From Aureimonas frigidaquae (GTDB taxonomy: Bacteria > Pseudomonadota > Alphaproteobacteria > Rhizobiales > Rhizobiaceae): 64,000 nt of DNA. Shown piece after piece: positions 36,530-64,000 of the stretch (positions are counted from its first letter, which is position 1; each line of letters starts with the position of its first letter). The DNA lies in contig NZ_BBWR01000006.1 of NCBI RefSeq assembly GCF_001463905.1, forward strand, positions 1 to 64,000, in the 5' to 3' direction. The position numbers and the translations under genes were made by a program. The notes beneath the pieces were generated by a model that made no database searches, was not told where the DNA came from, and saw only the letters and a list, made by a program, of their open reading frames with translations.

Positions 36530-37381
36530 ATGCTGGACATCGCAACGGGGGAGGCAATCTGGCTTGCCATCGCGCTTCTGGCAGGCGGCGCCGTGACGGG
36601 CCTTCTGGCCGGTGTCTTCGGCGTGGGCGGCGGCGCGGTGGCCGTGCCGATCCTGTATGAGCTGTTCCGCATCCTCGGCGTGCCGGAAGATGCGCGGATG
36701 CCCCTGTGCATCGGCACCTCGCTCGCCATTATCATTCCGACGTCGATCCGTTCCTTCCAGGCGCATCGGCACCGCGGCGCGGTGGATATGTCGATCCTGA
36801 AGGTCTGGGCCGTGCCGGTGGTGCTGGGGGTCGTGGCCGGCAGCGTCATCGCGCGCTATGCCCCGGCCGATCTGTTCAAGGCGGTCTTCATCGTGGTCGC
36901 CGGCTTCTCCGCGATCAAGCTTCTCTTCGCCCGCGACAGCTGGCGGCTCGGGCTGGACATGCCGGGCCGCCCGTTGATGCTCACCTATGGCGGGGTGATC
37001 GGCATCCTGTCCTCGCTCATGGGCATTGGCGGCGGGCAGCTTTCGTCGCTCTTCATGACCTTCTACAGCCGGCCGATCCACCAGGCCGTGGCCACATCGT
37101 CGGGTCTCGGCGTGATCATCTCCATCCCCGGGACGATCGGCTACATCATCGCCGGCTGGCACGTGGCGGCGCAGTACCCGTCCGTCGCGGCGCTGCAACC
37201 GCCGCTTGCACTCGGCTATGTCTCGCTGGTCGGCTTCGTCCTCTTCTCGATCACCAGCGTGATCACGGCGCCGATGGGCGCGGCGCTGGCGCACAAGCTC
37301 GACAAGAAGCGGCTGGAACGGGCCTTCGGCGTGTTCCTGGTGCTGATCTGCCTGCGCTTTACCGTATCGCTCGTCCATTGA
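36530..37381 (+). CDS. TSUP (TauE/SafE) family permease, second gene
   Basis: A 283-residue membrane protein. The first repeat has GLLAGVFGVGGGAVAVPILYELF and the second GILSSLMGIGGGQLSSLFM, the classic paired TSUP glycine motifs; about eight helices are visible. Start ATG 36530 follows GGGGAGGGG. It is likely cotranscribed with the shorter TSUP gene upstream. Substrate unknown; sulfite or related anions are the family norm. Confidence 0.88.
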   Translation: MLDIATGEAIWLAIALLAGGAVTGLLAGVFGVGGGAVAVPILYELFRILGVPEDARMPLCIGTSLAIIIPTSIRSFQAHRHRGAVDMSILKVWAVPVVLGVVAGSVIARYAPADLFKAVFIVVAGFSAIKLLFARDSWRLGLDMPGRPLMLTYGGVIGILSSLMGIGGGQLSSLFMTFYSRPIHQAVATSSGLGVIISIPGTIGYIIAGWHVAAQYPSVAALQPPLALGYVSLVGFVLFSITSVITAPMGAALAHKLDKKRLERAFGVFLVLICLRFTVSLVH

Positions 37382-62036: not shown

Positions 62037-62696
62037 ATGCAGATTCTACCGGTCCTGGACCTGATGGGGGGCGTCGTCGTGCATGGCAGGGGCGGACGGC
62101 GCGACAGCTACCGCCCGATCGCTTCACCCCTCGGCAGCGCCGAAGACGCTGCCGGCCTGGCGCGGGCATTGCTGCGCGAAGCCGACGCAGGAACCCTCTA
62201 TGTGGCCGATCTCGACGCCATAGAGGGCAAGCCGCTGCAGATCGGCGCACTGACGGCGATCCGCGATGGAGTGCCGGCTGTGCAGCTCTGGGTGGATGGC
62301 GGCTTCGCCGATCCGGCCGCCGCCCGGTCCCTGCCGCCGGGCCTGCGGCCGGTCTTCGGGTCGGAAAGCCTTCAGTCCGTCCCCTCCGCCTGGCCCCCGG
62401 ACAGCATCCTGTCTCTCGACTTTGCCGGCGCGTGTTTTCGCGGGCCCGCCGAACTCCTGAACCATGCCGATACCTGGCCCTTCGACATCATCGTCATGAC
62501 GCTGGCCGCCGTCGGCTCCGATGCGGGGCCCGACATGGCACGCATCGCCGATATCGTCCGGCGGGCCGGCGGCAGGCGCGTCTTCGCGGCCGGCGGCGTG
62601 CGCAACCGGGAGGACCTCGCCGCCCTGCACGAGGCAGGATGCCACGGCGCCCTCGTCGCCAGCGCACTGCATGCCGGGCGTCTGCGTGGGCCTTGA
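62037..62696 (+). CDS. HisA-like TIM-barrel protein of the H4MPT cluster
   Basis: A 219-residue half-barrel-duplicated protein like HisA/HisF: MQILPVLDLMGGVVVHGRGG opens it, LYVADLDAIEGKPLQ is the first Asp block and RVFAAGGVRNREDLAALHEAGCHGALVASAL the phosphate-binding end. HisA-related proteins of this kind occur in methanogens and methylotrophs next to H4MPT genes and are not histidine enzymes. GAAAGG precedes the ATG. It diverges from the hydantoinase-like gene across a 54-base gap. Confidence 0.83.
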   Translation: MQILPVLDLMGGVVVHGRGGRRDSYRPIASPLGSAEDAAGLARALLREADAGTLYVADLDAIEGKPLQIGALTAIRDGVPAVQLWVDGGFADPAAARSLPPGLRPVFGSESLQSVPSAWPPDSILSLDFAGACFRGPAELLNHADTWPFDIIVMTLAAVGSDAGPDMARIADIVRRAGGRRVFAAGGVRNREDLAALHEAGCHGALVASALHAGRLRGP

Positions 62697-62751
62697 AGCG
62701 CGTCGCAGGCAGCTACGGGGCCGTCACCGACGTGCTATCAGCCAAACGAGA

Positions 62752-62815
62752 TTGCAATGGTCCGGGAGCGCTGCCGGTCTCACCGGACGTATGCAGCGGC
62801 CGACGGCCATTGCAA
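62752..62815. repeat. 64-base nested inverted repeat
   Basis: TTGCAATGG (62752-62760) pairs with CCATTGCAA (62807-62815); inside, CCG pairs with CGG, CGCTGC (62769-62774) with GCAGCG (62793-62798), and CCGGT with ACCGG (62774-62778, 62782-62786) around a CTC loop. Both strands could fold. It ends 58 bases before the next open frame and 56 after the HisA-like stop. There is no T run, so it is not a plain terminator. Confidence 0.65.
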
Positions 62816-62904
62816 ACCCGAAGGCTGAGACGGCCGGAAGGCTCCGCAGCGTTATCCTATCCTGCGACATGAGGTGGAATTCGACGTGGAGAATGATCGG
62901 AAAC

Positions 62905-62995
62905 AAGAAGGGCCGGCACCCGGAGGCCCGACCCTTGCTTCGGTGTCTGCGGGGGGTGTAACCGGCGAAAGCCGGGCAGGGACTAATTCCCACAG
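62905..62995 (+). ncRNA. Candidate structured RNA upstream of the Abi_2 gene
   Basis: GCCGG-CACCC (62912-62921) can pair with GGGTG (62954-62958) and CCGGC (62962-62966) across a 3-base bulge; CCC/GGG and GACCC/GGTGTC pairs stack inside. An alternative is CCGGC-GAAA-GCCGG (62962-62975). GGGA-CTAAT-TCCC (62979-62991) forms a further hairpin 12 bases before the chosen ATG. Translating this stretch gives no protein-like sequence. AbiF-type genes are known to have an upstream RNA (the AbiF RNA motif); I could not test for a match. Confidence 0.42.
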
Positions 62996-63002
62996 CGCAT
63001 GC

Positions 63003-63752
63003 ATGACTTATATGGCCTGCGATGCCAGGATTCAAGACCGGGTGCATATGGCCGATGCCGTGTGCCAGCGGGTTGGCGCTACGATTTCCCCTCCACGGTT
63101 GTCCTGGTATATGCAACAGGCAAACGGCGACATACGGCTGGCAATCCGGCTGTATGCGTGGAATACGGCGGTGGCTGGTGCATTGCTTCCCACGTTGCAT
63201 CAGACGGAAGTCGCAATCAGGAATTTCGCAGTCCGCCGTTTGAGATCCAGGTATGGCAAAGGCTGGTACCAAAGCTTGACGCTGGAGCGTCGGCTGGGAA
63301 AGACGCCACTTGCTGCCGAACTCCGCGTGTTGGTCACCAGGGCCGAGGCCTTGAAGCAGTCCCACAGTGTTGCGGATCAAATCACGAGTGACCTCACTTT
63401 CGGCTTTTGGGTGAAGCTTTTCACGAAGTCTTTTCACTCCGACCTATGGCTGGCGCAGTTTCATACGATGAGCGCGTCGATGCCTCGATCCATGACCGTC
63501 GATCGACTGCATGCCGGGGTCGATTTCGTTCGCACGTTCCGAAACAATGTTGCGCATCACAAGAACATCGTCCGTGGTCCTGTCGAAGCTCACTACGAAC
63601 GCACGCTTGAGGTTCTTGGCTGGTTTTGCAAGGACACTGCGCAGCTCGCGCGGGACACTGCGACGTTCCCCGCGATCTGGGCGTGCTGCCCCGTTCGGAT
63701 AGGCATGGCGGAGGTGGGAACTGCCGCGGGACATGCACGCCCGGGAGTATGA
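63003..63752 (+). CDS. Abi_2/AbiF-like protein with HEPN motif (abortive-infection type)
   Basis: Up to 249 residues. Conserved Abi_2 blocks are LSWYMQQANGDIRLAIRLYAWNTAVAGALLPTLHQTEVAIRNFA, then DQITSDLTFGFWVKLFTKSFHSDLW and FVRTFRNNVAHHKNIV. The last holds R180-N-N-V-A-H185, an R-x4-H HEPN RNase motif. Such proteins are RNA-cleaving phage-defence toxins. Start is uncertain: ATG 63003, 63012 or 63048, none with a good ribosome site; GTG 62874 would run through the structured region. Codons (ttg, agg, gca, aat) are less GC-biased than in neighbours, which suggests transfer. Confidence 0.75.
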   Translation: MTYMACDARIQDRVHMADAVCQRVGATISPPRLSWYMQQANGDIRLAIRLYAWNTAVAGALLPTLHQTEVAIRNFAVRRLRSRYGKGWYQSLTLERRLGKTPLAAELRVLVTRAEALKQSHSVADQITSDLTFGFWVKLFTKSFHSDLWLAQFHTMSASMPRSMTVDRLHAGVDFVRTFRNNVAHHKNIVRGPVEAHYERTLEVLGWFCKDTAQLARDTATFPAIWACCPVRIGMAEVGTAAGHARPGV

Positions 63753-63912
63753 TCCGGGCGAGGGCCGGTGGCCGAACCAGAGGGGTGCCTTCTGGCCGAC
63801 ATATGCAAAAGAGCACGAACGGCTCAACCCTCGGGCGCCAACGGAATAAATTGCCTTTTTAATACATGGATTTTGTAGACTAATTGCGGGTGTCTCAGAT
63901 TGGAGGATCCGC

Positions 63913-64000
63913 ATGCCCAAAACCGAATCCAGCGCGATCGCCCTCGGCAGCCCGGCGCCCGACTTCGTCCTGTCGGCACCGGACGGACGCACCGTCCGGC
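63913..64000 (+). CDS. Peroxiredoxin/AhpC-TSA-like protein, 5' part only
   Basis: The first 29 codons read MPKTESSAIALGSPAPDFVLS and continue APDGRTVR, matching the start of thioredoxin-fold peroxiredoxins (G-x-P-A-P-D-F). GGAGG lies six bases before the ATG. The gene runs off the window, so the peroxidatic Cys is not seen. The 160 bases upstream include an AT-rich stretch (63840-63885) with TTGCCT and TAGACT 19 apart, a weak promoter match. Confidence 0.6.
   Translation, partial: MPKTESSAIALGSPAPDFVLSAPDGRTVR

Follow-up and report, generated by a model that had tools for sequence, protein, structure and literature searches.

RNA-controlled HEPN nucleases and the Aureimonas locus

Published work takes AbiF, together with its RNA, as the model for the ancestor of Cas13. 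AbiFr, an RNA, binds PbAbiF and inhibits its RNase, according to the review PMC12737573, and PMC12373285 describes both C. difficile RCd22, an RNA upstream of abiF with two RF03085 motifs that is able to neutralise the toxin both in cis and in trans, and lactococcal AbiD1, with its structured 5′ untranslated region (5′UTR) and short premature transcript. The available part of PMC12165695 places the HEPN domains of Cas13an in one clade with AbiD/F, and that of PMC9519451 calls the plasmid gene PD-T4-5 a distant relative of AbiF/D. We analysed a 64,000-nucleotide (nt) stretch of Aureimonas frigidaquae DNA (positions 1 to 64,000 of contig NZ_BBWR01000006.1; the window), in which a gene for an Abi_2/AbiF-like HEPN protein of 234 residues (63048-63752, + strand) follows a candidate two-domain leader RNA (62905-63001, + strand). 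With a probability that we put at roughly 0.68, this is a bipartite RNA-HEPN module of the AbiF/AbiD type, in which the leader RNA holds the HEPN ribonuclease inactive; protein and folded leader are probably a toxin and its RNA brake, serving phage defence. Direct support comes from the protein family, the intact active-site motif, the AbiF-like predicted fold, and an element that is conserved and covaries in the leaders of homologues and is matched by the window leader.

The window pair fits the AbiF kind, whereas its RNA does not belong to RF03085, the abiF family of Rfam. An initial annotation, made from the window sequence alone, had paired an Abi_2/HEPN protein with an upstream RNA, and this pairing is supported: the predicted protein structure is AbiF-like in fold, with 16% identity to PbAbiF (8VZ6) over the fold match, and a conserved structured RNA directly upstream is supported by leader links, covariation, two covariance models (R1 and R2) and a structural descriptor. 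Its suggestion of an unannotated Rfam abiF member fails, as no Rfam match was found in the window at gathering score, nor any in 62500-64000 at E ≤ 5, and no RF03085 match in the whole genome at E ≤ 1 (in a search whose 14 control genomes gave no positive control), and none in 20 homologue loci. The window RNA differs from the AbiFr and RCd22 partners of AbiF (8VZ6; AbiFCd), and its layout differs as well, with a terminator-like hairpin before the core domain, whereas RCd22 has its terminator at the 3′ end. Our literature searches gave no published record of such leader RNAs, and a Cell 2025 study on AbiF and Cas13 may already describe some. Sub-threshold RF03085 matches (cut-off 37) were seen at L032 (32.2 bits) and L033 (29.7 bits), in genomes G036 and G060 of the same family; the large frames near them are not abi-like by eye.

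PD-T4-5 is an E. coli plasmid defence gene for which the available text of PMC9519451 describes abortive-infection defence and mentions no RNA partner; it is the best PADLOC model for the window protein (E 3.9e-7) and is matched by 36/36 family members scanned, but the window match covers residues 32-85 only, 54 of 309 model positions. PADLOC AbiD is matched by 29/36 members at E ≤ 0.001 and by the window protein only at E 0.0053, and AbiD1, although it shares a structured 5′UTR, is under control that PMC12373285, in its available part, describes as translational. Compared with Cas13 (type VI CRISPR), the window protein has a single R-x4-H motif in 234 residues in place of two HEPN domains. 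The leader contains no repeat array, with only short two-copy repeats in 62690-63060, and nothing in the window points to the guide role that had been offered as an option.

An intact HEPN motif in a sparse protein family

The frame 62874-63752 (+ strand) is open throughout, its stop ending at 63752, and encodes the HEPN active-site motif R-x4-H as R-N-N-V-A-H at 63540-63557, in agreement with the Abi_2-type protein initially read there. R165, N166 and H170 are invariant in alignment A1 (36 sequences), and each of R, N and H is present in 48/51 homologues. On sequence comparison the start is most likely ATG 63048, with in-frame ATG 63012 and ATG 63003 as possible alternatives, because none of the eight other matches among relatives extends upstream of residue 61 in the GTG-62874 frame, and most listed homologue frames have a possible start within ~12 codons of the position of ATG 63048. 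These match limits and start positions rule out GTG 62874; homologues that begin there and lack R-x4-H, a pattern that would have spoken against the annotation, are not what was found. Pfam Abi_2 matches the window protein weakly (20.7 and 21.6 bits, below the cut-off of 25.6) and 32/36 family members at E ≤ 0.001.

Homologues are sparse, being present in 9/101 relatives at E ≤ 0.001 and, at E ≤ 1e-10, in 22/397 genomes of the order, 21/385 of the class and 15/398 of the phylum, the own genome included throughout; they also occur in 353 of 72,556 plasmid records and 5 of 50,697 phage records. The closest one found, at 36-38% identity, lies on an IMG/VR contig (L087) whose neighbouring genes look phage-like by eye. 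The Methylorubrum extorquens AM1 megaplasmid (L146) encodes a homologue of the window protein whose leader RNA is matched in full by R1, at 72.2 bits, and belongs to the R1 training set. The collection's table has 1 feature for that record and shows no gene at this site.

A covarying element in homologue leaders

Homologue loci were collected from genomes, viral contigs, plasmids and phages, giving 103 including the window, 99 of them with 250 nt upstream. Pairs linked by BLASTN between 250-nt stretches were counted where the proteins were below 60% identical; near-duplicate loci were kept (L006 and L051, for instance, represent the same place), so that the counts are inflated in every region. 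The leader (-250 to -1) yielded 205 linked pairs, 92 of them below 40% protein identity, with 71 loci involved, compared with 39 (27 below 40%) at -600 to -351, 6 (2) at -900 to -651, and 5 (0) in the 250 nt downstream of the gene. Since the first 250 nt of the gene gave 208 linked pairs (89 below 40%), conservation of the leader is similar to that of the gene start, and by this sequence measure it is more than chance. Upstream conservation among homologues, which the initial annotation had named as a check, was thus found.

Several leader types were distinguished by BLAST, and 23 loci, including the window and L087, were unlinked. The types that can be aligned jointly (A9, 30 sequences) share a core in which the helix P2a encloses the 3-bp helix P2b and the small hairpin P3, together with GCAGNGAC or a close variant of it. 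In the two-domain alignment A2, both partners had changed in 15/18 pairs (shuffled mean 5.6), and 87.0% of cells were paired (shuffled mean 76.2%; 0/500 shuffles), with helix 1 (P1) paired in 93% of cells. Both-sided changes affected 7/9 pairs in A6, the P2-domain alignment (0/500 shuffles), and 9/12 in A9 (1/500; cells and score 0/500), and the covariation of P2b holds across leader types. The number of pair types was not clearly above shuffles in A2, A6 or A9 (32, 426 and 243 of 500). The alignments omit some rows: L146 was left out of the P2-only set; L071, L080, L132 and the L039-type loci out of A6; L005, L071, L080, L097 and L132 out of A7; L041 (a pattern miss), L050 and L056 out of A8; and additionally L136 and L005 out of A9, which also omits the leader types with other cores (T3, T5, T6 and T8).

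Single-hairpin-type leaders lie ~75-190 nt behind a helix-turn-helix gene at L142 and L143, where that gene is annotated, and at L050, L062, L076 and L079, where it was recognised by eye from the frames; it may provide a further, protein-based regulator besides the RNA.

The window leader matches two family models

The window leader links to no other leader by BLAST, and its membership was assessed with covariance models that were built without it. R1, made from 12 homologue leaders, gave a single significant match in the 64 kb, at 62905-63001 on the + strand (29.4 bits, E 2.8e-5; next 11.1 bits), and this site was also the best genome-wide (next 21.1 bits). Five of its training members (L010, L114, L130, L150 and L080) had first been noticed for their resemblance to the window. 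To remove this bias a second model, R2, was made from one BLAST cluster of 8 loci, with the limits of L132 taken from its R1 match; its top match in the window was 62905-62988 on the + strand (23.0 bits, E 0.0013; next 15.7). Over 90 sources R2 returned 14 rows at E ≤ 1, comprising the window leader, eight sense-strand leaders (L080, L130, L131, L150, L107, L087, L114 and L010), opposite-strand shadows in L107 and L114, L072, L137 and window position 36935. The structured RNA of the initial annotation is thereby retained as an element of a conserved, covarying kind, but it spans about 97 nt, not some 300 bases; the view that 62697 to ~63000 contains no protein-like frame holds, as coding there has no homologue support.

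The predicted element (all parts on the + strand) opens with P1 at 62908-62936, a terminator-like hairpin with 8/9 outer pairs, one C-A mismatch and two inner pairs. In the second domain, the P2a arms CTGCGGG (62947-62953) and CCCACAG (62989-62995) form 6/7 pairs, the P2b arm GGT (62955-62957) pairs with ACT (62982-62984) through one G-U, and P3 is the hairpin CCGGC-GAAA-GCCGG (62962-62975). Directly behind P3 lies GCAGGGAC (62976-62983), whose pattern GCAG[TG][GT]A[CT] recurs in 18/103 leaders including the window (alignment A9). The P2-P3 segment (62943-63001) alone folds into the family structure.

A descriptor of the P2 domain (P2a with at least 6/7 pairs, P2b, CAGN[GT]A[CT], then a CTCA-like tail) found 10 sites in 1.44 Mb, both strands summed, nine of them in leaders (9/103, the window included). 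On dinucleotide shuffles it found 9 in 20,000 for the leader and 3 in 2.56 Mb for the whole window. As it was written after the window had been viewed and was loosened to admit it, we count the match as support and not as proof; L092, L094 and L097 are near copies, and of its eight non-window leaders only L058 had not been used in the design.

Antitoxin, attenuator or remnant

As we picture the module, the leader would yield a short two-domain RNA (62905-63001), and the 234-residue protein would be a HEPN ribonuclease that acts as a homodimer through R-N-N-V-A-H. Bound by the RNA, the protein would stay inactive, in the way that AbiF is held in check by AbiFr and RCd22, and P1, with its likeness to a terminator, might in addition reduce read-through into the gene. 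If the RNA were lost, for instance when a phage takes over the cell, the nuclease would be set free, cut RNA and stop growth. Transcription, binding, the dimer, toxicity, neutralisation and the phage trigger are what we infer here.

On our analysis the leader RNA is most likely an antitoxin, and the chief rival is a cis attenuator. The conserved leader would then be a regulator in cis, an attenuator or translation switch with no separate antitoxin, such that abi mRNA is made only once P1 has been passed, or its translation awaits the opening of the structure by a phage factor, as in lactococcal AbiD1. We regard this as unlikely. The terminator-like form of P1 suits it, as does the structured 5′UTR and short premature transcript of AbiD1 in the available text of PMC12373285. 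So does position: the element stops 1 nt short of ATG 63003 and 46 nt short of ATG 63048, the favoured start, and in 14/16 other R1 loci the gap to the chosen start is 10-49 nt (75 in L087, 158 in L131). Against it, the conserved core (GCAGNGAC, P2b) exceeds what a terminator needs, and a simple terminator scan of the window finds none at P1. Moreover, two loci carry RNA copies on both sides of the gene. L075 (positions 900-2700; gene on the - strand, 1309-2001) has four matches to a third model, R3, three before and one after the abi gene, all within repeats whose spacing is 193-200 nt; a 45-nt portion of the repeat unit is present five times, an array-like multiplication of the RNA unit. In L065 a 102-nt repeat, 84% alike, flanks the abi gene at 1277-1378 and 2117-2218, with an identical 38-nt RNA core. 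Because a copy after the gene would be useless as a 5′ leader, the sequences of L075 and L065 speak for a free RNA.

Several results weigh against the RNA-HEPN module in the window itself. By sequence P1 resembles an intrinsic terminator, so the E-values are optimistic: R1 at E ≤ 0.01 matched 69/385 class genomes, ~18 times the nominal expectation, and 28 of 30 R1-match loci checked had no abi gene by tblastn (mostly terminator-like hairpins by eye), while the two that adjoin one were both in training. The whole 98 nt favours another fold, with a minimum free energy of -40.2 compared with -27.4 kcal/mol for the family fold; P1 and P2a each contain a C-A mismatch; and the element's own stretch shows no excess stability over shuffles on the + strand (62895-62960, z +0.9; 62950-63048, z +0.4). 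P2-only searches miss the window, whether by R1 once P1 is cut off, by nhmmer or by R3, which is dominated by another leader type. The site is also absent from the output of a whole-genome R2 run in which 150 of 861 candidates were scored, and no consensus promoter was found at the leader. No relative above 38% identity was found, which puts covariation within the window lineage out of reach. In the R1 search of the class genomes, at least 29.4 bits was reached by 32 of the first 43 rows and by one lower down; with the window and two training loci subtracted from these 33, about one in twelve or thirteen genomes would reach such a score by chance. Its falling by chance on the right strand in the genome's one abi leader is unlikely, at 1e-5 to 1e-3 by our own estimate, which depends on how strongly terminators favour intergenic DNA.

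The same observations could mean that the window leader contains nothing more than a terminator-like hairpin belonging to the operon upstream. The family RNA would then be real at other loci but have been lost or have decayed in the window, next to an orphan abi gene that is either intact or drifting. The failure of the P2-only models, the terminator likeness of P1, the C-A mismatches and the lower-energy alternative fold all fit such a remnant, which we nonetheless hold to be improbable: the R1 match is the top one in window and genome, in the usual place and on the usual strand, the P2 descriptor finds the window plus one site outside leaders, and P1 is followed by GCTTCGG instead of a T run, in keeping with the negative terminator scan. 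That the upstream region has no RNA function at all and the protein alone matters is very improbable, since the low fold z-score of the whole 299-nt leader on the + strand (-1.87, a mild excess over shuffles, 7/200 being as good) and the lack of one for the element itself stand against the leader links, the A2 covariation, the R1 and R2 matches and the P2 descriptor.

The conserved leader RNAs, with no Rfam library match in the loci tested, offer many sequence-diverse natural RNA-protein pairs, and the two pairs with extra RNA copies round the gene are material to test how the RNA brake of a HEPN nuclease could become a guide. A speculative and rather doubtful extension is that AbiF/AbiD-type HEPN genes of Alphaproteobacteria and beyond have a large uncatalogued superfamily of partner RNAs, with a core GT..TGC..GCAGNGAC in a covarying helix, several outer forms and sometimes spaced copies around the gene, as living intermediates between a single RNA antitoxin and Cas13 crRNA arrays.

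Genomic setting

As initially annotated, the abi gene is an orphan behind a metabolic cluster: nothing else in the 4.1-Mb genome matches Abi_2 at E ≤ 10, and genes with DUF6513/pterin-binding, hydantoinase-like and HisA-like domains precede it. The G+C content of the locus (0.56-0.63) is below that of its flanks (about 0.66-0.77), which suggests that it was imported.

Behind the HisA-like gene lies a big, strong hairpin (62736-62835 or, more narrowly, 62738-62829; arms TTGCAATGG/CCATTGCAA), the most significant segment of the leader (z -3.3 on the + strand, -3.9 on the - strand); the 299-nt leader as a whole is likewise more marked on the - strand (z -3.49) than on the + strand. Falling outside the R1 and R2 matches, this hairpin was rejected as part of the conserved element, and a GGCCGG hairpin was rejected as a repeated genomic terminator, its pattern occurring once in the genome. 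Conservation of the leader at the DNA level in 100 relatives was also dismissed: 91/101 genomes (the own included) match at E ≤ 1, and the listed matches in genomes other than the own are short. Of those in the big hairpin, two were examined; one lies within a long open frame at L017, the other within shorter frames at L022. An empty site in congeners could not be read, since in the 3 further genomes of the genus (among 21) that have the upstream gene, different DNA follows it. At L085, the upstream gene is followed by a 178-residue frame that we take to be fae.
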